Part shown: positions 6,778 through 34,475 of the stretch, piece by piece
Layout: the number at the start of each line of letters is the position of its first letter
How positions within the stretch are numbered: the first letter of the stretch is position 1
Origin: a virus
DNA: 42,385 nucleotides
Reading direction: 5' to 3' (one strand)
IMG/VR virus record: IMGVR_UViG_3300042691_030535
Span: 1-42,385 of that record
The notes under the pieces: model-generated
What the model was told of the DNA's origin: nothing
What the model saw: the letters and a program-made list of their open reading frames with translations, nothing else
Databases searched by the model: none
Made by a program: the position numbers and the translations under genes

Positions 6778-7632
6778 ATGCCCCAATTCATCCTCAGCAA
6801 CCGGGCGCAGTACAGCCTGGCCACTGCTGACATGCCGCTAACCGGCACGTTTTATGGTCAGTTGATGACATCTAGTTTTACATTTAGCCCGGACACGCAT
6901 GACACAATCGCTGCAATCAGCAGCGGCGAGATCACACCTGTTACCGGATATTCAGCAGGTGGAAAGCCGGTAACGCTAAGTAATTCGATGAACACCACGA
7001 CCGGTGTAAATACCCTACTTATTGCCCCGGTTCAGTGGGAAGCCGCCATTACAGGCGCCCAAGGCATCTTGATCTACTACCGCCCAACAGGATCGACCGC
7101 TTCCCAGCAGATCGTACTGGGATACAACCATCTCGGCGGCCCTCAAGCAAGTACAGGCGGGCTGTTCAGAATCGAGCAGATGAAGATCGAAACCGTCAAG
7201 ACAGGAAGCGCAAATATCACAATTCCCCATGCAACTGTCAACGCGATCATAAACGAAACCATAAATCTGAGCGCTGGCAACTTCTACGCAATGCTGCTAG
7301 GTGCTAGCTACACCCCCAGCGCCGCTCATTCGTTCCGGTCAGATCTCACCAACGAGGTGACCGGCGCTGGCTACACCGCTGGTGGCGTGGCTGCCCCGTT
7401 GACGATCACGCGGGACGATGCCGCTAACGTCACCCTGGTCAGGGCCGAGCAAATCATCCATCCAGCTTGCACGGTTTCGCCTAAGTTTGTAGCCTATTAT
7501 CAGCGGCTTGGTGGGGCGGCTTCCGCTGATCGAGTTGTGATGATTGCCAATTTTGGCACAACCTACCCTTCTGGTGGTGCCGTATATCCAATCAATGCAA
7601 ACGAAATTATCATCGGCGGGGTTTACGTTTGA
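6778..7632 (+). CDS. Probable virion protein (284 aa) on the plus strand
   Basis: A beta-rich, Gly/Thr/Ser/Ala-rich protein typical of tail-tip or fibre components of Synechococcus phages. It shows internal similarity: GYSAGGKPVTLSNS near residue 60 and GYTAGGVAAPLTITRDDAAN near 200. No catalytic motif or signal peptide. It starts with ATG and runs opposite to the adjacent late tail operon; the next plus gene starts in its TGA. Codon composition is less GC-biased than neighbouring genes, with several AT-rich stretches. The structural role is inferred from composition and position. Confidence 0.65.
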   Translation: MPQFILSNRAQYSLATADMPLTGTFYGQLMTSSFTFSPDTHDTIAAISSGEITPVTGYSAGGKPVTLSNSMNTTTGVNTLLIAPVQWEAAITGAQGILIYYRPTGSTASQQIVLGYNHLGGPQASTGGLFRIEQMKIETVKTGSANITIPHATVNAIINETINLSAGNFYAMLLGASYTPSAAHSFRSDLTNEVTGAGYTAGGVAAPLTITRDDAANVTLVRAEQIIHPACTVSPKFVAYYQRLGGAASADRVVMIANFGTTYPSGGAVYPINANEIIIGGVYV

Positions 7633-9209: not shown

Positions 9210-11345
9210 CTAGACGCCTCCTAGATCCCGTGCCGTCCAATCGTATTGCCACGTATCTGCAAAGCTGCCATCTACCAGGTGCTGATATGAATTTTTCACG
9301 CCTAGCGTGCCGTCTGCATTAACTACTTGAACGTATGTAAAGTTATCATTGGAATCTTCGTCTATATAAGCTGACTGTCCTGGGGTGATACTTATGTCAA
9401 TTTGCTGAATATACACAGATCCTTTGGGTCCATGCTTAGCAAAATCGCCAATAGCTACATAGCTCAATAGTAACACGTATTTTGTGTAATCCTGCGGCGG
9501 CCTCGGTGGTACTGGCGGATTTGCTGGCCCCGTTGGCGTGCCAGGCTGCGAGGGGATGCCGGGGGGATCGACCGGGCCGGTGGGTGGCAGGGGGGCAGGG
9601 GGAGCGCTGCCGCCGCCTCCGCCTCCGCCAGACCCGCCTCCGCCGCCATCACCGCCACCTCCGCCGACATTGAATCCCCCGCCCACATATTCGCCGCTGG
9701 CTGGCCGCCGGCCGTAGCGCCCGTAGAACCAGACCTCCTCGCTCGTCCAGCTTTGCTCGTCCGGCGCGGGGATGCTGCAGTCGGTGGCCCGGCTGGAATC
9801 TGCATCGCAGGAGGGGGCAGTGTCGCCGCTCAACAGGAACGCGCTCTCGACCCGAACCGCTGCCACGTCCAGGGCCACCAGGGATCGCCCCAACTGGTCA
9901 ACCGGGCAGTGCTCCAACTGCAGGGTGAGAATGCCCTCGCGTCCGGTCTTGGCGCTGACGATCCAGTAGAGCTCAATCAGGGGGCTGCTCACCCCGTCCA
10001 CATCCTCGCGGTCTAGCTGTAGTTGAATCAGCTCGCCATCCCCCAGGGTCGAATTCCAGTAACCGGATTTGATCGCCACCGCTGCGGTGTGGGTGATGTG
10101 CCGCCGCTTCGCCTGGCCAAATCGCATCGCCCTCGCCGCATGAATTTCGGTTGTAGCGAACTGGCTGAGATCGTGTTCTTCTGTTGGCGCGGAGTCTGGG
10201 CAGTCGTCGTAGGCCACCTCCGTGGTCCGGGTCATCCTGGACAATCCGTCAGGCCCCTGCTGGCGCCATGCCACCAGCGCTCGATAAGGTCGGCTGGCCT
10301 CAGCGCTCACCGTTTGCCAGGTGTAGCTGCCATCGACGGTTGCCTCGCCATCAAACACCCACCGTGGCCTCAGCGGCTCGGTGTCGATGGCCCCAGTTGA
10401 CGTAACGGGCAGCAGCGGCCGCAAGCCATAGCGACCGGCGATCTTGGTTTCCCGCACCAGGAAATAGGGGCCCACCTTGCTCATCCAGTCGCTGATGCCG
10501 GTTGGCTCTGACAGCACCCCATTCCAATAGAAACCGTTGGCATCCATGAACCGGGCCGCTGCGGCAAGCGACTCCCGATCGATCCGGACCGGGGCGGTGC
10601 GGCCATCGTTGTTCAGTAGGTATAAATAAAGTTCGCCTAGGTTGTTAGAGCTGCCGTAAACACCATCCAGCAACCTGATTGATTCGACTCCGTTGCGGAT
10701 GAATAGATTTATTTTTCGCTTCCAGTGGCCACGGTCTGGCAGGCCGACGCCATCAGCATCAAAGCCGTTGAAGTTTACAGCGCTGAACGATACAGTCGTT
10801 AGGTCTTTATGTGTGCCAACCGTGCCGCATTGCGTGGGGGCTTGTACTTTGTTGGCAATTAACTGCGAGCCTGAGTAAACATCGACAAGGAAGTTGCCGG
10901 GGGTCCAAGTGCCGGCGGTTTTTGGGCCATAGGACTGGCTGAAATTGCCGACCCGACAGCGGCCCTGGAAAACGCCATTTACAGAGATGCCGCCGAGCCG
11001 GCCCTGGGAAACAACCAGCCTCCACTTGACGGCCACGGCATTGGCCACGGGCTGGCCTTCAAGTACCGGGGAGTCGAACCGGCAGGCCGTGGCCTTCGGG
11101 CTCACGATCACCCCGCCGATGCCAGCATCTGATGGGCTGCTGCAGCTGTCGCCGATCCGCCGACACCAGACGATGGGGGCCCGCTCGAACAGCCCCATTG
11201 CCTGCTGGTTGGCGTTCCAATCGGACTGGGCCTCGGTGGTGGTGGTGGCCGTCGGCCTGGCGGTTGCGCCCAGGGCAGCGGATCCCGGCACCGTGGCCTT
11301 GCCGTATCTGCTGCCGCCCTGGCTGCTAGCCGAGAATGCAATCAT
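9210..11345 (-). CDS. J-like tail hub / central tail protein (711 aa)
   Basis: A large protein directly after the tape measure and a minor tail protein, in the place of lambda J. It contains hub-like segments (YFLVRETKIAGRYGLRPLLP, SGYWNSTLGDGELIQLQLDR, a WFYGRYGRRP region). A Gly-only linker then a Pro-rich linker at about residues 555-610 leads to a C-terminal beta domain with YVLLLSYVAIGDFAKHG and a DSNDNFTYVQVVNADGTLG segment. The flexible linker may present a terminal receptor-contacting domain. Lambda J is longer (about 1,130 residues). Confidence 0.75.
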   Translation of the reverse strand: MIAFSASSQGGSRYGKATVPGSAALGATARPTATTTTEAQSDWNANQQAMGLFERAPIVWCRRIGDSCSSPSDAGIGGVIVSPKATACRFDSPVLEGQPVANAVAVKWRLVVSQGRLGGISVNGVFQGRCRVGNFSQSYGPKTAGTWTPGNFLVDVYSGSQLIANKVQAPTQCGTVGTHKDLTTVSFSAVNFNGFDADGVGLPDRGHWKRKINLFIRNGVESIRLLDGVYGSSNNLGELYLYLLNNDGRTAPVRIDRESLAAAARFMDANGFYWNGVLSEPTGISDWMSKVGPYFLVRETKIAGRYGLRPLLPVTSTGAIDTEPLRPRWVFDGEATVDGSYTWQTVSAEASRPYRALVAWRQQGPDGLSRMTRTTEVAYDDCPDSAPTEEHDLSQFATTEIHAARAMRFGQAKRRHITHTAAVAIKSGYWNSTLGDGELIQLQLDREDVDGVSSPLIELYWIVSAKTGREGILTLQLEHCPVDQLGRSLVALDVAAVRVESAFLLSGDTAPSCDADSSRATDCSIPAPDEQSWTSEEVWFYGRYGRRPASGEYVGGGFNVGGGGGDGGGGGSGGGGGGGSAPPAPLPPTGPVDPPGIPSQPGTPTGPANPPVPPRPPQDYTKYVLLLSYVAIGDFAKHGPKGSVYIQQIDISITPGQSAYIDEDSNDNFTYVQVVNADGTLGVKNSYQHLVDGSFADTWQYDWTARDLGGV

Positions 11346-11827: not shown

Positions 11828-13755
11828 CAGGCAACGATCCCCAGGGCCTGGCGGCCGTCATAGGACTGGAGGCGATCCCACAGCCCGTCAACCGCGTCAG
11901 CGGCAACGGCCTGGGCATCCTCAATCCTGATCCACTGCGAGCCGTCGGGTTGTTGGATCACCGGGCCGGTTTGCAGGGTGATCACTGGGGCGAAGCTGCC
12001 GCTGGCTGCTCCCCTGGCGCCGCTGCCACCCTGGCGAATGCCCAGACCCTGATCCCCTATCTGCGCTTGGAGGAACTGGGGCACCTTCTTCTGGGGCACG
12101 ATGTATTCAGGGCCTGCCTCGCCGGCCATGATCAGGGTTGGCCGATCCACTCGGCCGCCTACGGCAAACTGCGGCACCTCAACGGGCTGGATCATCCCCA
12201 GCCGCGGACCACGCACCGCCGCGCTCACCGAATTGGCGGCAACAATCAGCCGGTTGATCTGGTCGATGAAGGCGTTGACCGCCCGCCCGGCCAGGTTTAG
12301 GGCTCCATTGATCACCCCCCTCACCGTGCCAATGATCGATTCCCAGGCAGCGGTGATGGGCCGCACCAGTCCCACCGCATAGTCGCGCATCCCGTCCATA
12401 GCCTGATTCCAGGTTTGCCCCAGGCGGGCAATCAGGCCATTCTCTGGGCCGATGATCGTGTCAAAAAATGCCGCAAAGTTGGCGACGATGTTCGGCAGGA
12501 TGTTGCTGGCGTAGCTGCTGATGCCGTCCAGCATCAGGTTCCAGCCACCGCCGATCATTGCGATGAACCCGGTGGCGGGGTTGGCGATCAGATCGAACAG
12601 CCCCCTAAAGGCGTCGGCGATTTGGTCGCGGAAACTGAAAATGGCAACGGCCGTGGCGACAGCAGCCGCACCAATCAGGATCGGGGCGGAGACGAACCCG
12701 GCGACCAGGGCGGCTAGGCTGGTTGCTACTGAGGTAATACCGCCGGCCCAGCCAGCAAGGGTGGCTCCAATGCCTGCCCCGGCTAGAGCCGTGCCTGCCC
12801 CTGTGGCGGAAGCTCCTACCGCCGTTTGCGCTGCGGCCAATTGAGTGGCGGCAACAGCAGCGGCAGACTGGGCAGCTGCTGCTCTAGTTGCAGCAGCTGC
12901 CAGCCCGCTAATCAGCCCTGTCGAAGCGGCGATAGCCGGGGCCAGTGCGGTAAACGCAATGCCTAACCCAATGGCAAGCCCAACCGTCGTTTGAAGCCAG
13001 CCAGGCAACTTTGTCATTGCGTCGGTAGCCGCCAAAACCGCAGAAGCTACGGCGTCCAGCGCAGGGATTAGAGCAATTGTGAGGCTTGTTGCCATCCCTC
13101 CGATCTTGCCTTGAATCATTGTTAGCTTTACTTCGTATTCGTGCGCTTTTTTTGCGAATGCCGTTGTCATCTTGCCGCCCATTTTTTCAATTGCATCGCC
13201 GCCCATATTTAACATTGGCACCATCTCGGCGCCAGCTTTGCCAAATAACTGAATTGCTAGCGCTGTTTTGTCAATGCCTGCAGGCATTGCCTTAAACTTA
13301 TTCGCAACATCAAATATTACTTTATCCGCGCTTTTAAGTTGACCGCTGGCATCCCGAGAAGAAAGACCTAGCTTGTCAAGGGCTTTATCTGCATTGCCGC
13401 TGTATAATTCTTTAGACAATTTGGCTATACTTTTAGCTACTGAATCAATATCAGTGCCGCTCATTCCAGCGGCCTTTTTAAATTTAGCCAGAGACTCAAC
13501 TGAAACACCTGTGCGCTCGCTTAAGATATGCATTGATTTTGCAGCGTCAAGCGATTTCATTGCTAGCGCCGTAATTCCTCCCAACGTCACGGCTGGGGCC
13601 AGCGCTCCTAGCGCCCCCCCCAAAGGCCCAGCCGACCGAAGCAAGCTGGAAGCGGCCGTGCTCGCCTGGCCCAATCCGGTTGTGAGCTTGGAGATCTGCT
13701 CAGAGCCCGTAACCTTGGCCCCGATCTTCAAGATCGCATCAAAATTCACCGCCAT
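11827..13755 (-). CDS. Tape measure protein (642 aa)
   Basis: A long helical protein with the usual tape-measure layout: coiled N-terminal part, several hydrophobic Ala/Gly-rich membrane-like segments (AMTKLPGWLQTTVGLAIGLG; LAALVAGFVSAPILIGAAAV), a PLGGALGALAPAV stretch near residue 45, and a C-terminal part with the common FAVGGRVDRPTLIMAGEAGP motif. It sets tail length and reaches the membrane at ejection. It follows the chaperone genes by one base. The size predicts a tail of roughly 100 nm by the usual 0.15 nm per residue rule. Confidence 0.88.
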   Translation of the reverse strand: MAVNFDAILKIGAKVTGSEQISKLTTGLGQASTAASSLLRSAGPLGGALGALAPAVTLGGITALAMKSLDAAKSMHILSERTGVSVESLAKFKKAAGMSGTDIDSVAKSIAKLSKELYSGNADKALDKLGLSSRDASGQLKSADKVIFDVANKFKAMPAGIDKTALAIQLFGKAGAEMVPMLNMGGDAIEKMGGKMTTAFAKKAHEYEVKLTMIQGKIGGMATSLTIALIPALDAVASAVLAATDAMTKLPGWLQTTVGLAIGLGIAFTALAPAIAASTGLISGLAAAATRAAAAQSAAAVAATQLAAAQTAVGASATGAGTALAGAGIGATLAGWAGGITSVATSLAALVAGFVSAPILIGAAAVATAVAIFSFRDQIADAFRGLFDLIANPATGFIAMIGGGWNLMLDGISSYASNILPNIVANFAAFFDTIIGPENGLIARLGQTWNQAMDGMRDYAVGLVRPITAAWESIIGTVRGVINGALNLAGRAVNAFIDQINRLIVAANSVSAAVRGPRLGMIQPVEVPQFAVGGRVDRPTLIMAGEAGPEYIVPQKKVPQFLQAQIGDQGLGIRQGGSGARGAASGSFAPVITLQTGPVIQQPDGSQWIRIEDAQAVAADAVDGLWDRLQSYDGRQALGIVA

Positions 13756-29662: not shown

Positions 29663-30277
29663 CTACGCCAATTGAACGTTCAGGGGCTGGTCAACCCTGC
29701 GGTAATGCCTGCCCCGAACATCCGTTCCTTGGTGGACGGCAAGCCAGATCAGCTTGCTGTGAACTCGAGCATTCCTGGCTGCAGCGGCAATTGAAGGAAA
29801 CCGTCGTCCACTTTCAATGCATTCAACCTGATGAGATTTTGTTAGTTTTGGCAAATTCATATTAACAATCTTTTTGGCAAGCAATTCAGAATCAAACAAC
29901 TGCGTTAAAACTGCCTGGTCCATGCCGCCAAACTGATCGGGTCGTTTTTTGGCAAAGGACCTAAGACTTTTGCGCGAGACGTAGCGAGGGCTGTTTTTGG
30001 CGTCCGAACGGGCGACAGCAGGAAGGTCGCCCGAATCAATCCATAAATAAACTTTTTCGTAGGAATAGCCAGTTAAAGCTTTGATTGTCCCGATTGATAT
30101 AAATTCGCCTTCGGGAATCCTTGGCAGGCCCAATTCTTGCGCTTTCCAAATCATTGATTGGTTTGACCTTGATGGCCTGCGCTGGGCAAACCTGGCAACG
30201 ACTAAGTGCCAGGGCAGCTCGCCCACCAGATCGGTCAGGGCCTCGATGTCCTCTGGAGACCATGGGCGGCCGCCCAT
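29663..30277 (-). CDS. HTH protein with Myb-like and NUMOD-like parts (204 aa)
   Basis: ATG at 30277 overlaps the upstream TGA; a GTG at 30280 is also in frame. Residues 1-50 look SANT/Myb-like (RPWSPEDIEALTDLVGELPW). Residues about 60-110 form a MerR/excisionase-type HTH (ISIGTIKALTGYSYEKVYLW; IDSGDLPAVARSD). The C-terminal segment VECIESGRRFPSIAAAARNA ends like a nuclease-associated (NUMOD1/IENR1) DNA-binding repeat, but no HNH or GIY-YIG catalytic domain is present. Probably a DNA-binding regulator, possibly derived from a homing endonuclease. Confidence 0.65.
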   Translation of the reverse strand: MGGRPWSPEDIEALTDLVGELPWHLVVARFAQRRPSRSNQSMIWKAQELGLPRIPEGEFISIGTIKALTGYSYEKVYLWIDSGDLPAVARSDAKNSPRYVSRKSLRSFAKKRPDQFGGMDQAVLTQLFDSELLAKKIVNMNLPKLTKSHQVECIESGRRFPSIAAAARNARVHSKLIWLAVHQGTDVRGRHYRRVDQPLNVQLA

Positions 30278-30435
30278 CACCCCTGCCCTCCAGCCTCAAG
30301 CAACTTCACCGCCTGTGCCCCGGTAATTTCCCTCCCAGTGGCCACCTGCAGCCTCAGGGCCAGGGTGAAAGGGTGCTCGCCGGGGCGTGCCTGAGCCAAG
30401 GCGGCAAGGCGGCTCTGAAGGGCTGTGGGGTCCAT
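30277..30435 (-). CDS. Hypothetical small protein (52 aa)
   Basis: ATG at 30435 starts one base after the upstream stop; TGA at 30277-30279 overlaps the next ATG. The product MDPTALQSRLAALAQARPGE continues FTLALRLQVATGREITGAQA and is Ala-rich and helical. Tight interlocking supports it. No family recognised. Confidence 0.6.
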   Translation of the reverse strand: MDPTALQSRLAALAQARPGEHPFTLALRLQVATGREITGAQAVKLLEAGGQG

Positions 30436-30436
30436 C

Positions 30437-30811
30437 TCAGCCTTTGCAGTGGTAAGCGACGCCTGCCCTGAGGATTGCTACCTGCTTAGCAAGGGGGCTG
30501 CCTTCCTGGCATTCAACTTGCTGCAACACGGTTGCTAGCGCCTGATCCAATTCCTCAGGCGTCGGCGGCAATGGTGGCGGGCTGTGCAAATTGTTGGCGA
30601 TGGCCTCCAGTTGTGCGGCGTCTATGATCTTGGGAAATTCGCTGTTGTACTTCCAGGTCCCAATCTGGCTCATCGCTCCACGAATGCCATCAGCAATAAG
30701 GCGCCGCCTCTCCAGGATTGGGCTATTTGCATGGCACCGATTGCCTTCAGCAAAGACCAGGACACACTTTGCGGCTGGTGTCAGCAGCGGAAATTCAACA
30801 TGCTCGGCCAT
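30437..30811 (-). CDS. Hypothetical protein (124 aa), first gene of the rusA operon
   Basis: The sequence includes LTPAAKCVLVFAEGNRCHAN, ERRRLIADGIRGAMSQIGTW and a Pro-rich linker followed by EELDQALATVLQQVECQEGS. No family is recognised. It starts just beyond the iteron region (30935-31214), so its promoter should lie within or next to that region, which could couple expression to origin occupancy. Confidence 0.65.
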   Translation of the reverse strand: MAEHVEFPLLTPAAKCVLVFAEGNRCHANSPILERRRLIADGIRGAMSQIGTWKYNSEFPKIIDAAQLEAIANNLHSPPPLPPTPEELDQALATVLQQVECQEGSPLAKQVAILRAGVAYHCKG

Positions 30812-31019
30812 GGATCAATCCTGAGGGTGTGAGGGGGGCTGACGTTCCAGCCACGCAACCGTAGACCCTAACGGCTGGGGGTGGCAACGGGTGGAGCTCT
30901 GAAGTGGGCTGCAGAGGGGTGGTCGCTGCTGAGTGTTGGTCGTTGGGAGGTTTGTTGGCGCTGGCGACCAACATTGAAACAAGCTGTGCCGCAATGGATC
31001 TCAGCGAATTTGGGCCCAA

Positions 31020-31117
31020 TGTTGGTTTGTTGGTCTGTTGGTCGGTGGCCGGGTCCGTCTTAAAGAAAAAAAGGGGCCAGAAAAAAAGGAAAGAGAAAAA
31101 AGACCAACAAACCAACA
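31020..31117. repeat. 17-bp perfect inverted repeat around a purine-rich tract
   Basis: TGTTGGTTTGTTGGTCT (31020-31036) is the exact reverse complement of 31101-31117. The 64 bases between contain long A-runs on the plus strand. Possible cruciform or paired initiator sites. Confidence 0.7.
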
Positions 31118-31167
31118 ATACACATACATATATACCTATATCCCTTATAGGGACTACGTTTTCGGGT

Positions 31168-31214
31168 GTTGGTCGCCGACCAACATTCGACCAACATTCG
31201 ACCAACAGACCAAC
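31168..31214. repeat. Tandem 11-bp iterons with ATTCGACC core
   Basis: ATTCGACCAAC occurs twice back to back (31185-31195, 31196-31206). It is preceded by an inverted pair TGTTGGTCG/CGACCAACA around one base and followed by another GACCAAC at 31208. The 11-bp period places each copy on the same DNA face. The same ATTCGACC core with the same period occurs at 34448-34469. Confidence 0.7.
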
Positions 31215-31225
31215 ACTCGCAGATG

Positions 31226-33850
31226 TCACGGCAGGGGCCCGGTTGCCAGGTAAGACCAAGCGCCACGGGCGGTTTGCTCCACCGTTCCCAGCCCCATGCC
31301 AGCCAGCGCCTGGACTGCGGCAGAGGCGGCCCCGCTGTCGATCTCCCTGCGTTGTGCCCGAGTGAGCTTGTGGGCCACGTCTCGCCACGCGATGGGCCTC
31401 CCTGCAGCCTCGGCCAGCCCGTGGATCATCCGCATCAGATCAGACGCCTCGCCGGCGTCTGCGGCGGCCTCATGGATGCCTAGGGTCCATTCGTTGACCA
31501 CCTCAACCAACAGGATCGCCCGCTCAACCACCCCAAGGCCCAAAGGAGTGGAGAAAGGAGCACCCAGCTCCCAGGACCAGAGCAGGTGCAGCAGTGCCGC
31601 TATCCGCAGCACCTTGCCTGGGGCCTTGCCCATCAATGCGCCATGCGCCGGGAGGGTGGCTTTCAACGCGAGGCCCTGGGCCGCTTCCTCGAAGTCCATG
31701 AACGCCCGTCGCGCCTCGGGATCCAGGGTCAGGGACGTTCGCGGCAGGCGGTAGATGTGATCACACGCCGCCGCCAGAAAGTCTGAGGCGGCATCAGTGG
31801 CAGCAATCTGATCGGGGGTTTCCTCGTCCGCCACCCTGACAACAACAGCAGGAAGGGGAACAAACAAGAACCGGGCCCAAAGGCCAGAGGCGTCACCATT
31901 GGCAACCAAGGATTGAAGTATTTCGGGCTGGATGGTGCCCCAGATGGACAAGTGGCAGCGCTCGTAGGACCGGCCGCCATTGGATGCAGCGACCCGCAAA
32001 CTGCGAAAGCCGGCGCCGTCGTAGGCCTCCAGCAGCTGCTCTGAGTCGGAGCCCCGGCCAGCTCGGTACTGGTTAAGCCCTCCAAAAAGACCTGCAAGTT
32101 CCTCCCGGTGAATCGATAGGGCCAGGCCACGGGCCTCGTGCACCTGCAGCTGACCGGCCAGCGCCTCGGCCGTGGTGTCGGAGATGGAGATGTATGCGGG
32201 CTGCGGTGGATCGGGTCGCTCAGAAGGCTTGACACCCCGGTTTTGCTCCGTCCAATTGCTCATCGCCCTGCTGTGATCCCGGGCCAGGTCAAGGCGAAGC
32301 GTTTGGGTTGGTTCGGAGACCAAAAGTGTGGACAGTGGCGATTTTTTGGCCCCAGTACGTGCCACAAGCGCCATGTAGAGATTGAGGGGCACCCGGTAGC
32401 TCGCCGCATAGCTGGCGACCAGTTCGGTGCCAAGCTTGACCACCCCAGAAACGCAGACCAAAAAGGCCATCCCTGCGGCCAAGTCGTCGGCCGGCAGGTA
32501 ACGGGTTCTCACGGCCAGGGCTTCTGCCAGCCGTGGCGGGAAAATGTGCTCAAGCCTGATGCGAGCATTGCCGCCAGCACGCTCTGCCGCCCGGGTAAGG
32601 CGTTGCACCTCCTGTTGAACCTGCAGGCCGGATTCGTCCTCCCGCTCGATCGCTCGCAGCAGATCACGCAGGGTTGCGGCCGAGATGTTGGAGGCCTCGG
32701 ACAACCGAATCCGCTCGGCCTCCAGGTCTTGCCTTGACGCCCCGCCCTCGACCGCATAGCGGAGCTGATCGCGCACCTCCTCCAGGCTCAATGGCGGGGG
32801 GGATGCCGCAGCATGGGAGTGGTGGGCCCCCGGCACTGGCTGCTGTTCTGTGTCGCTGTGGTGGCTGGATTGGATGAGATCGTGCCTGCGGATGTCGATC
32901 TCCCATTGATCGCGCAGGTAGGGCCAGATGCTGCCGGCGTGGATCTTGCTGGGGGCGCCCTTGAAGTAGTCGGCCAGATCGGTGATCGATCCGCAGCAGG
33001 TTTCGGATAGAAGCTGCTCGGCCGCAGCGGCGCCGAGCTCCACATGCAACCGCATGGCCAGGCCAACAAGCTGGTCGTATTGACCGGAACCGTGCGCAAA
33101 CTGCGGGACTCTGAGCAGTGCTTGCCTCAAGGCATCGGCCGGCCTGGGGGGCAAAGCCCCAGGCAGCACCGACCCGCCCCGAGGCGGCTGGGGTGCTGCC
33201 GGTTGTGGGGCTGCCGCCAACCAGGCCTCAACCTCCTCGACGGTGTAACGCCGGTCGTTGCTGGCGTGAATTTTTGACTGCCCCGATGCGTTGCCATCAG
33301 GGCCCAGGTAGTAGGCCCCGGGCAACCTCATCACGCGGCTTGGGTTTTTGTTGACGGGATCGGCGCCGGTAACGGTGATCAGCGCTTGTTGGATCGGCCG
33401 CCAGCGATCGGGGGCGATGGGTTCGGTGAGCACCCAGTAAAGATGGGCCGACTTGCCTCCAGTCGTGACGGTGATCGACGGCTCGCCTAGGCCAAATTCC
33501 CGCCACCCCTGCAGCTGCCATTCGACAGGCCTGTTGTCCCATTCAACCCAGAAGGCCAGGCAGGAGCTGATGCCAGGCTTGACGATGCCTCTGACCGTGA
33601 TCGATTCATCGCGGTCCCCACCGTCGTTGACAACCAGATAGACCCCGCGCTGCTCCCGCTGCCAGAGGCTGGCTTTGACAAGGTCGTAGGCGCCGGCCCT
33701 GGCCTTGATGCCGTTTGGGTTGGTATCAGCGTTAAACCGATTGGGGTTTAGACGATGAGGAAAGGCTCTCAGCCGAGCCGTGGCGGGATCCTTGCCGAGC
33801 AGGGACAGAAATTTGTCCGCCTGGGCGCGATCAATTGGAGGGATATTCAC
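31226..33850 (-). CDS. Primase-helicase: RepB-like primase domain fused to DUF3987
   Basis: A 874-residue protein from GTG 33850, which overlaps the upstream TGA as in many pairs here; an ATG at 33943 would overlap the upstream gene by about 97 bases. Residues 90-185 resemble an archaeo-eukaryotic-type primase: FWVEWD (Glu103, Asp105), GGKSAHLYWVL (SxH at 134-136) and NPSRVMRLPGAYY. Residues about 440-800 form a DUF3987 ATPase-like region with EHIFPPRLAEALAVRT and a degenerate P-loop ARTGAKKSPLST. It should prime and unwind DNA at the adjacent iteron region. DUF3987 proteins are common in cyanobacterial mobile elements. No DNA polymerase was found, so host polymerase is probably used. Confidence 0.8.
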   Translation of the reverse strand: MNIPPIDRAQADKFLSLLGKDPATARLRAFPHRLNPNRFNADTNPNGIKARAGAYDLVKASLWQREQRGVYLVVNDGGDRDESITVRGIVKPGISSCLAFWVEWDNRPVEWQLQGWREFGLGEPSITVTTGGKSAHLYWVLTEPIAPDRWRPIQQALITVTGADPVNKNPSRVMRLPGAYYLGPDGNASGQSKIHASNDRRYTVEEVEAWLAAAPQPAAPQPPRGGSVLPGALPPRPADALRQALLRVPQFAHGSGQYDQLVGLAMRLHVELGAAAAEQLLSETCCGSITDLADYFKGAPSKIHAGSIWPYLRDQWEIDIRRHDLIQSSHHSDTEQQPVPGAHHSHAAASPPPLSLEEVRDQLRYAVEGGASRQDLEAERIRLSEASNISAATLRDLLRAIEREDESGLQVQQEVQRLTRAAERAGGNARIRLEHIFPPRLAEALAVRTRYLPADDLAAGMAFLVCVSGVVKLGTELVASYAASYRVPLNLYMALVARTGAKKSPLSTLLVSEPTQTLRLDLARDHSRAMSNWTEQNRGVKPSERPDPPQPAYISISDTTAEALAGQLQVHEARGLALSIHREELAGLFGGLNQYRAGRGSDSEQLLEAYDGAGFRSLRVAASNGGRSYERCHLSIWGTIQPEILQSLVANGDASGLWARFLFVPLPAVVVRVADEETPDQIAATDAASDFLAAACDHIYRLPRTSLTLDPEARRAFMDFEEAAQGLALKATLPAHGALMGKAPGKVLRIAALLHLLWSWELGAPFSTPLGLGVVERAILLVEVVNEWTLGIHEAAADAGEASDLMRMIHGLAEAAGRPIAWRDVAHKLTRAQRREIDSGAASAAVQALAGMGLGTVEQTARGAWSYLATGPLP

Positions 33851-34260
33851 GCAATGGCTAGCTGGCTTGGTTTGGTAGTTGCTCGGGGCTTTGGTTTGGA
33901 TGCTGACTTTTTGCGGCCGCGTCGATGTCTGCTGTGGATCCATTCAGCCTTTGCCTGGTCAAGTTGCGTATTCTCCTGTTTTCGGTTTTCCAAGTGCTGC
34001 GCCAGCCAGCAGAGGTACTGGTTTTCCTCTTCCGCAAGCTGTAGCTGTGCCGCTTGTGGGTCGGTTTCTAACAAGTCGCGGAACGGATAATCAATGATCT
34101 CCTGCCTATACGCATCCATGTAAGGAGTGCGAGTGTAGATGTAATGAAGAGCTTCATCCGTCAACCATTCAGCCAGTTCTTGCTGATAGCGCCGCTGCAG
34201 CCATTGCGTGCCGGTGAGCCGCCCCCAGCGGGTCAGGATCGTGGGCTCAGGGCTGCTCAT
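33847..34260 (-). CDS. Hypothetical protein (137 aa), basic C-terminus
   Basis: Helical protein: LTRWGRLTGTQWLQRRYQQE, LAEWLTDEALHYIYTRTPYM, DAYRQEIIDYPFRDLLETDP and LAEEENQYLCWLAQHLENRK, then a Lys/Arg-rich tail that may touch DNA or RNA. It overlaps the RHH gene by 14 bases upstream and the primase GTG downstream. It may assist replication, but no family is recognised. Confidence 0.65.
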   Translation of the reverse strand: MSSPEPTILTRWGRLTGTQWLQRRYQQELAEWLTDEALHYIYTRTPYMDAYRQEIIDYPFRDLLETDPQAAQLQLAEEENQYLCWLAQHLENRKQENTQLDQAKAEWIHSRHRRGRKKSASKPKPRATTKPSQLAIA

Positions 34261-34411
34261 CGCCCCTCTTGGGCATGGGATCAGCCTTCATGGCACGCTC
34301 CAAGGCCAGCAGCAGCAGAGTGGTTATGGGCAGGTTCCGCTTGCGCTTCTGCCAGTCCAGCCAATCCCGCTGCCGGGAGGTGGCCTGCAGTTTGACGCTC
34401 AATTTGTCCAT
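34247..34411 (-). CDS. Putative small RHH-like regulator (54 aa)
   Basis: The frame begins MDKLSVKLQATSRQRDWLDW, then QKRKRNLPITTLLLLALERA: a short strand followed by two helices, as in CopG/Arc-type ribbon-helix-helix proteins. It is the first gene of the replication operon, 17 bases after a -10-like TATGCT, and sits directly beside the 11-bp tandem repeats at 34448-34475, as autoregulated RHH copy-control genes often do. Too short for strong family proof. Confidence 0.5.
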   Translation of the reverse strand: MDKLSVKLQATSRQRDWLDWQKRKRNLPITTLLLLALERAMKADPMPKRGDEQP

Positions 34412-34434
34412 GGCTGTGGGTGGGCTGCCCGACC

Positions 34435-34475
34435 AGCATACCCATGTGCGGGTCGAATGCGGGTCGAATGCGGGG
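34435..34475 (-). promoter_or_regulatory. Promoter/operator of the replication operon with 11-bp tandem repeats
   Basis: Plus-strand GCGGGTCGAAT occurs at 34448-34458 and 34459-34469, then GCGGGG. On the minus strand this is ATTCGACCCGC twice, sharing the ATTCGACC core of the origin iterons. A minus-strand -10-like TATGCT lies at 34435-34440, so bound protein would cover the -35 area and block transcription of the 34411-31226 operon. Confidence 0.55.

Follow-up and report, generated by a model that had tools for sequence, protein, structure and literature searches.

A probable iteron-type replication origin behind a cyanophage primase-helicase gene and its likely reader, the C-terminal winged helix

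Directly behind a primase-helicase gene of a viral record lies a dense array of short repeats that is probably an iteron-type replication origin. Comparison with related elements suggests that the array is most likely read by the C-terminal winged helix of the primase-helicase itself, not by the small ribbon-helix-helix (RHH) protein encoded in the same operon. Upstream of the operon, a tandem pair of ATTCGACCCGC probably serves as a separate switch, the operator of this small RHH repressor, a claim that rests on few cases. Taken together, a winged-helix initiator that reads the iterons, its origin array and a separate RHH operator make up an account in which we have good confidence, as far as sequence comparison can carry it.

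Results

The window, which is the whole stretch of 42,385 nucleotides analysed, is a virus record. The large terminase that it encodes shares 69% identity with its counterpart in Synechococcus phage S-LBS1 (MG271909); therefore a freshwater Synechococcus-type host is likely. The window probably carries a cyanophage replication module, whose operon on the minus strand starts with an RHH-like gene, as it does in the relatives, continues with a small middle gene and ends with a PrimPol/DUF3987 primase-helicase gene, directly 3′ of which the array follows (Table 1). Among relatives the product of the middle gene has between about 85 and 137 aa, with strong conservation of its first part (EPTILTRWGRLTGAQWL); loci L018–L020 have no such gene. 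No relatives were found when the 137-aa and 54-aa proteins were used as queries against the viral contigs. In several relatives the gene next behind the array encodes a conserved protein (GLHRRDPGHWYWL..., at 13588–14508 of L014, also in L018 and L020), unlike the gene at this place in the window (30437–30811), which has no family match. A gene for an HTH_17 protein is located downstream of the array at 29663–30280. The window also contains a RecE-like exonuclease gene (645–1325), which stands outside the replication finding.

Table 1. Features of the replication module in the window
Feature	Position	Strand	Basis
RHH-like protein gene, 54 aa	34247..34411	-	sequence pattern; weak fold matches
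Middle operon gene, 137 aa, no function given	33847..34260	-	length differs among relatives
Primase-helicase gene, 905 aa	31226..33943	-	AEP/PrimPol, DUF3987 AAA+ ATPase and C-terminal winged helix
Codons of C-terminal winged helix (residues 831–905), proposed iteron reader	31229..31453	-	model and comparison
Iteron array, probable replication origin	30934..31215	both orientations	12 exact ACCAACA and 2 degenerate copies
Downstream tandem pair of the earlier note, GACCAACA iterons with TTC spacers	31185..31206	+	word counts
Candidate unwinding element: AT-rich stretch containing a conserved TCCCTATAAGGGA palindrome	31118..31166		alignment
Possible 17-bp stem (31101–31117 with 31020–31036), pyrimidine-rich loop, inner inverted iterons	31020..31117	-	folding, z -3.1
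Tandem ATTCGACCCGC x2, proposed RHH protein operator	34448..34469	-	position and period; other 11-bp pair at homologous place in nearest relatives
TATGCT, possible -10 element of operon promoter	34435..34440	-	by eye

The primase-helicase combines three domains. Its PrimPol domain matches the structure of the S-2L PrimPol (6ZP9) at 1.2e-31 in a profile search and qualifies as an AEP domain, and the ATPase is assigned to DUF3987 by Pfam PF13148 at 1.4e-37. The ATPase part also matches MCM proteins. The full-length structure model was set aside as too poor (mean pLDDT 42.6), with only the C-terminus and part of the ATPase being usable. Residues 831–905 were modelled with moderate local confidence as H-H-H-H-E-E, that is, helices plus a two-stranded wing, and they match winged-helix domains at Z of 7–8.5, which identifies them as a winged helix.

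The word GACCAACA is confined to the array: 10/10 window copies, distributed over both strands, fall within its 282 bp, where 1.05 copies are expected in the whole 42-kb window. Together with two more ACCAACA and two degenerate CCAAC, the total is about 14 iterons. Along the coding direction of the primase-helicase, their order is RRRR F / AT-rich stretch / RR / pyrimidine tract / FFF / R FFF, and the spacing between the GACCAACA copies varies. The array is the densest short-word cluster of the window, in which one 7-mer occurs 12 times within 420 bp, as compared with 5 for the runner-up, and its clustering was reached in 0/100 shuffles. Iteron origins are recognized by many copies of a short word clustered by the initiator gene and by an AT-rich unwinding region beside the repeats, and both are found here. 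An earlier note on this DNA had placed an origin-like region behind the primase-helicase gene, and the array geometry and conservation agree with it. Pairing in the possible stem is retained in 8 sequences; the counts of changed pairs are not above those in shuffles, and covariation does not argue convincingly for a stem-loop. A conserved hairpin, suspected by eye where a GATC element separates iteron clusters, was not singled out by folding and was dropped.

Seven distinct relatives have the same operon (L003, L004, L005, L006, L010, L012/L014 and L015). All of them keep the array in the same order and with nearly the same spacing, although several copies are lost in L014; the alignment retains the AT-rich centre in most relatives. 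Within the array CCAACA is conserved and the TTC spacer is not. While the iteron word is kept in the seven, their RHH proteins are only about 30–50% identical and the upstream repeat differs. Upstream of the operon in L004, a dense CCATAGCCAT run is present at 6841–7260, one 7-mer occurring 11 times within these 420 bp. The sole match in an exact search for the tandem iterons was the end of another viral contig (L007:7920–8015), where a tandem GGAATGTTGGATCTAA is followed by TGTTGGTCGAA, the 11-bp unit of the window; the part of this contig in view contains no operon and shows no relation to it. These repeats may belong to a further array that is truncated where the contig stops.

According to the earlier note, one tandem 11-bp motif with a shared core brackets the operon. 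The pairs are present, ATTCGACC being found at 31185 and 31196 on the plus strand and at 34451 and 34462 on the minus strand, and by position both sites lie outside the operon genes. The core, however, does not survive as one repeat unit, since the downstream unit is GACCAACA and the upstream unit is ATTCGACCCGC, which lacks CCAACA. The form ATTCGACCAAC is an out-of-register view of the (G)ACCAACA repeat. Three adjoining iterons spaced by TTC give rise to the 11-bp tandem and to the string ATTCGACC, and only TTC-spaced neighbours do so. A scan of the window shows an excess of ATTCGACC (5 copies versus 0.87 expected); one copy lies outside both sites at 10047 on the minus strand. Conservation was found for one of the two sites: the downstream array is kept in the seven relatives, whereas ATTCGACC occurs upstream of the RHH gene in none of those with that region present (L005 is cut there). 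In random trials, a tandem 11-mer of this genome had an 8-mer in common with the 28-bp iteron stretch in 0.4% and with the array as a whole in 10% of cases; for 110-base pieces drawn at random from the window, a word shared with the array reached the observed length (9 bases) in 21%. The eight shared letters are most likely a coincidence of the TTC spacer in the iteron array.

The assignment of the first operon gene to an RHH-like protein holds by its sequence pattern. The monomer model of the 54-aa protein has helices at 12–25 and 29–43, and its fold matches are weak (E above 1), with the best six all being RHH proteins. The upstream pair occupies the place expected of an auto-operator. At the homologous upstream place in L003 and L004 there are ACGCGGATCTT/ACGTGGATCTC-like 11-bp pairs, located beside a conserved TAGCACCCCTG that the window shares with both. 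A weaker ATCTGC pair with 11-bp spacing lies upstream of the RHH gene in L015, and in L006, L010 and L014 the pair is weak or absent and none stands out. The differing pairs would fit an auto-operator that diverges along with its protein; the RHH proteins of the relatives differ at N-terminal residues too. A promoter scan found no sigma-70 site for the operon promoter. An exact search of the viral contigs for the upstream tandem returned only two contigs, both without the operon, and these were discarded as chance matches.

Of 400 genomes from the cyanobacterial family to which L015 belongs, 64 contain related genes; the loci may be fragments. Arrays of similar geometry and other words follow many of these genes (Table 2). 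A clear array was not found behind the genes of two DUF3987 relatives, L029 and L032. The L020 array is weaker, being equalled in 10/100 shuffles for exact 7-mers and in 2/200 for the degenerate word. One genome (G156) holds two related primase-helicase elements, L018 and L050, and a clear array word is seen only in L018.

Table 2. Array words behind related primase-helicase genes and the wing sequences that go with them
Word	Locus	Wing	Remark
ATCGGCAA	L018, L022	RGTPTY	
AGCCCACA	L020	RGAGRY	
ACCTACC	L023	RGGTTY	
CTGTCCCC	L027, L028	RGGLLY	
TGTCCCCC		RGGLLY	
GTCCCTCC	L030		
TCCACCCC	L051–L055		more distant primase-helicases; other arrangement
AAAGAATCC	L069–L076		more distant primase-helicases; other arrangement
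CCTAACC	S-LBS1 gene		other arrangement

The reader of the array is indicated by L018 and L020, the one pair of elements in which winged helix and array have changed cleanly together. Their helicases are identical at 315/326 positions (97%) and their RHH proteins at 52/56 (93%), whereas the winged helices share only 41/70 (59%) and the array words are wholly different. At the DNA level the identity is about 0.9 in the operon, 0.55–0.77 in the winged helix, 0.28–0.39 in the array and again about 0.9 behind it. Because the identity dips only over the winged helix and the array, both have been exchanged, or have diverged, together. Their change while the RHH protein stays nearly the same argues for the winged helix of the primase-helicase as the likely reader of the origin. 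The wing RGAW[STA]Y is common to all seven aligned GACCAACA/AGCCAACA members, which have the (G/A)CCAACA word. Word similarity and winged-helix identity, given helicase identity, show a rank correlation of 0.33, which serves as support only, the pairs not being independent.

Discussion

From these features we infer the following course of initiation. The primase-helicase would bind the roughly 14 GACCAACA iterons, arranged in inverted clusters around the AT-rich stretch and the pyrimidine tract, via its C-terminal winged helix. Its MCM-like AAA+ domain would then melt the DNA, and the PrimPol domain would prime. Seated at the ATTCGACCCGC pair, the 54-aa RHH protein would repress its own operon and thereby limit the supply of initiator.

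The earlier note favoured one regulator for both sites, in which the RHH protein binds ATTCGACC at either end and couples operon expression to origin use. An 8-mer and an 11-bp period common to both sites, with a specific coincidence of about 0.4%, would speak for it, yet the shared word is not significant against the whole array, the motif is missing upstream in relatives, and downstream the conserved part is CCAACA and not the TTC spacer. Moreover, the iteron word is kept where the RHH proteins differ, in the relatives, and is another where they are nearly identical, in L018/L020; on these grounds ATTCGACC was dismissed as the site of one regulator; such a coupling is very unlikely. It is also improbable, to an even greater degree, that the array serves partition or transcriptional regulation, as a parS-like centromere or a terminator/antiterminator region would. 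Clustered inverted repeats behind operons can indeed act in partition or termination, but the AT-rich centre, the link to the DNA-binding domain of the replication protein and the pRN1-like position are at odds with that role, and the scanned proteins, which cover part of the window's genes, include no ParB/ParA-like one.

An origin could instead be read by another protein, either a host DnaA-like factor or a phage regulator such as the HTH_17 protein. Such a gene does lie downstream of the array, and RSF1010 has a separate iteron-binding protein (PMC4234260). Nevertheless, word and winged helix change jointly within otherwise near-identical operons, the array is always directly behind the primase-helicase gene while the next downstream gene differs, and a host factor would not account for many words in one host family. 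We regard a separate reader as unlikely and retain the winged helix of the primase-helicase as the proposed one.

The chances are about even that the winged helix and the adjacent origin constitute one exchangeable cassette across cyanobacterial phages and integrated elements, with recombination swapping both, so that the word changes and the inverted-iteron geometry stays fixed. If this is true, related elements could coexist in one cell, neither firing nor titrating the origins of the others, which amounts to a switchable incompatibility system. The arrays offer candidate origins for many freshwater cyanophages and cyanobacterial islands, as well as a testable account of how replicon compatibility changes. 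A recognition code could be derived from matched pairs of winged helix and word, and the module could supply small self-contained replicons for Synechococcus.

Parts of the module recur in known phages. Cyanophage S-2L has the related PrimPol domain (6ZP9); candidate GGCAC repeats behind its PrimPol gene are not above chance and were rejected as an array. S-LBS1 also has a small RHH-like gene before its primase-polymerase and 11 CCTAACC words behind it, but the iteron word and arrangement are others, and the replication protein is shorter, with no close similarity in the helicase part. Phage P4 alpha, compared here by description, likewise unites primase, helicase and a C-terminal winged helix for origin repeats in one protein, and its winged helix binds those repeats (PMC4234260); its primase, by contrast, is of the Toprim type. 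In the parts of the PrimPol-PV1 survey available to us, DUF3987 fusions are listed, the PrimQH and all3500 families of the supergroup having an AEP fused to DUF3987 as here, and C-terminal winged helices are proposed to recognise origins (PMC5862659). Those parts identify no origin sequences, whereas here an array adjoins the gene and changes with the winged helix. A literature search, with most subscription journals outside its reach, found no publication in which an origin sequence is assigned to PrimPol-DUF3987 proteins.

The likeness to plasmid copy-control operons drawn in the earlier note is apt, as illustrated by the Sulfolobus plasmid pRN1 with its repressor orf56, an RHH protein, and its replication gene orf904. 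Both systems lead from a small gene, for a repressor in pRN1 and for a putative one in the window, to an AEP primase-helicase with a C-terminal winged helix and on to a 3′ origin, a probable one in the window. The copy number of pRN1 is controlled by orf56, and its essential origin, just 3′ of orf904, is a stem-loop with a 21-nt stem and a 58-nt loop and without iterons, whose sequence varies while its form is kept (PMC4234260). A stem of similar size (17 bp) could also fold in the window, yet the array differs from the pRN1 stem-loop by its inverted clusters of roughly 14 iterons, and between the two operon genes common to both systems the window has a further small gene. The pRN1 helicase belongs to SF3, in contrast to the DUF3987 ATPase of the window. 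Thus the window module would work like pRN1 but is not a pRN1-type member, having DUF3987 in place of an SF3 helicase.
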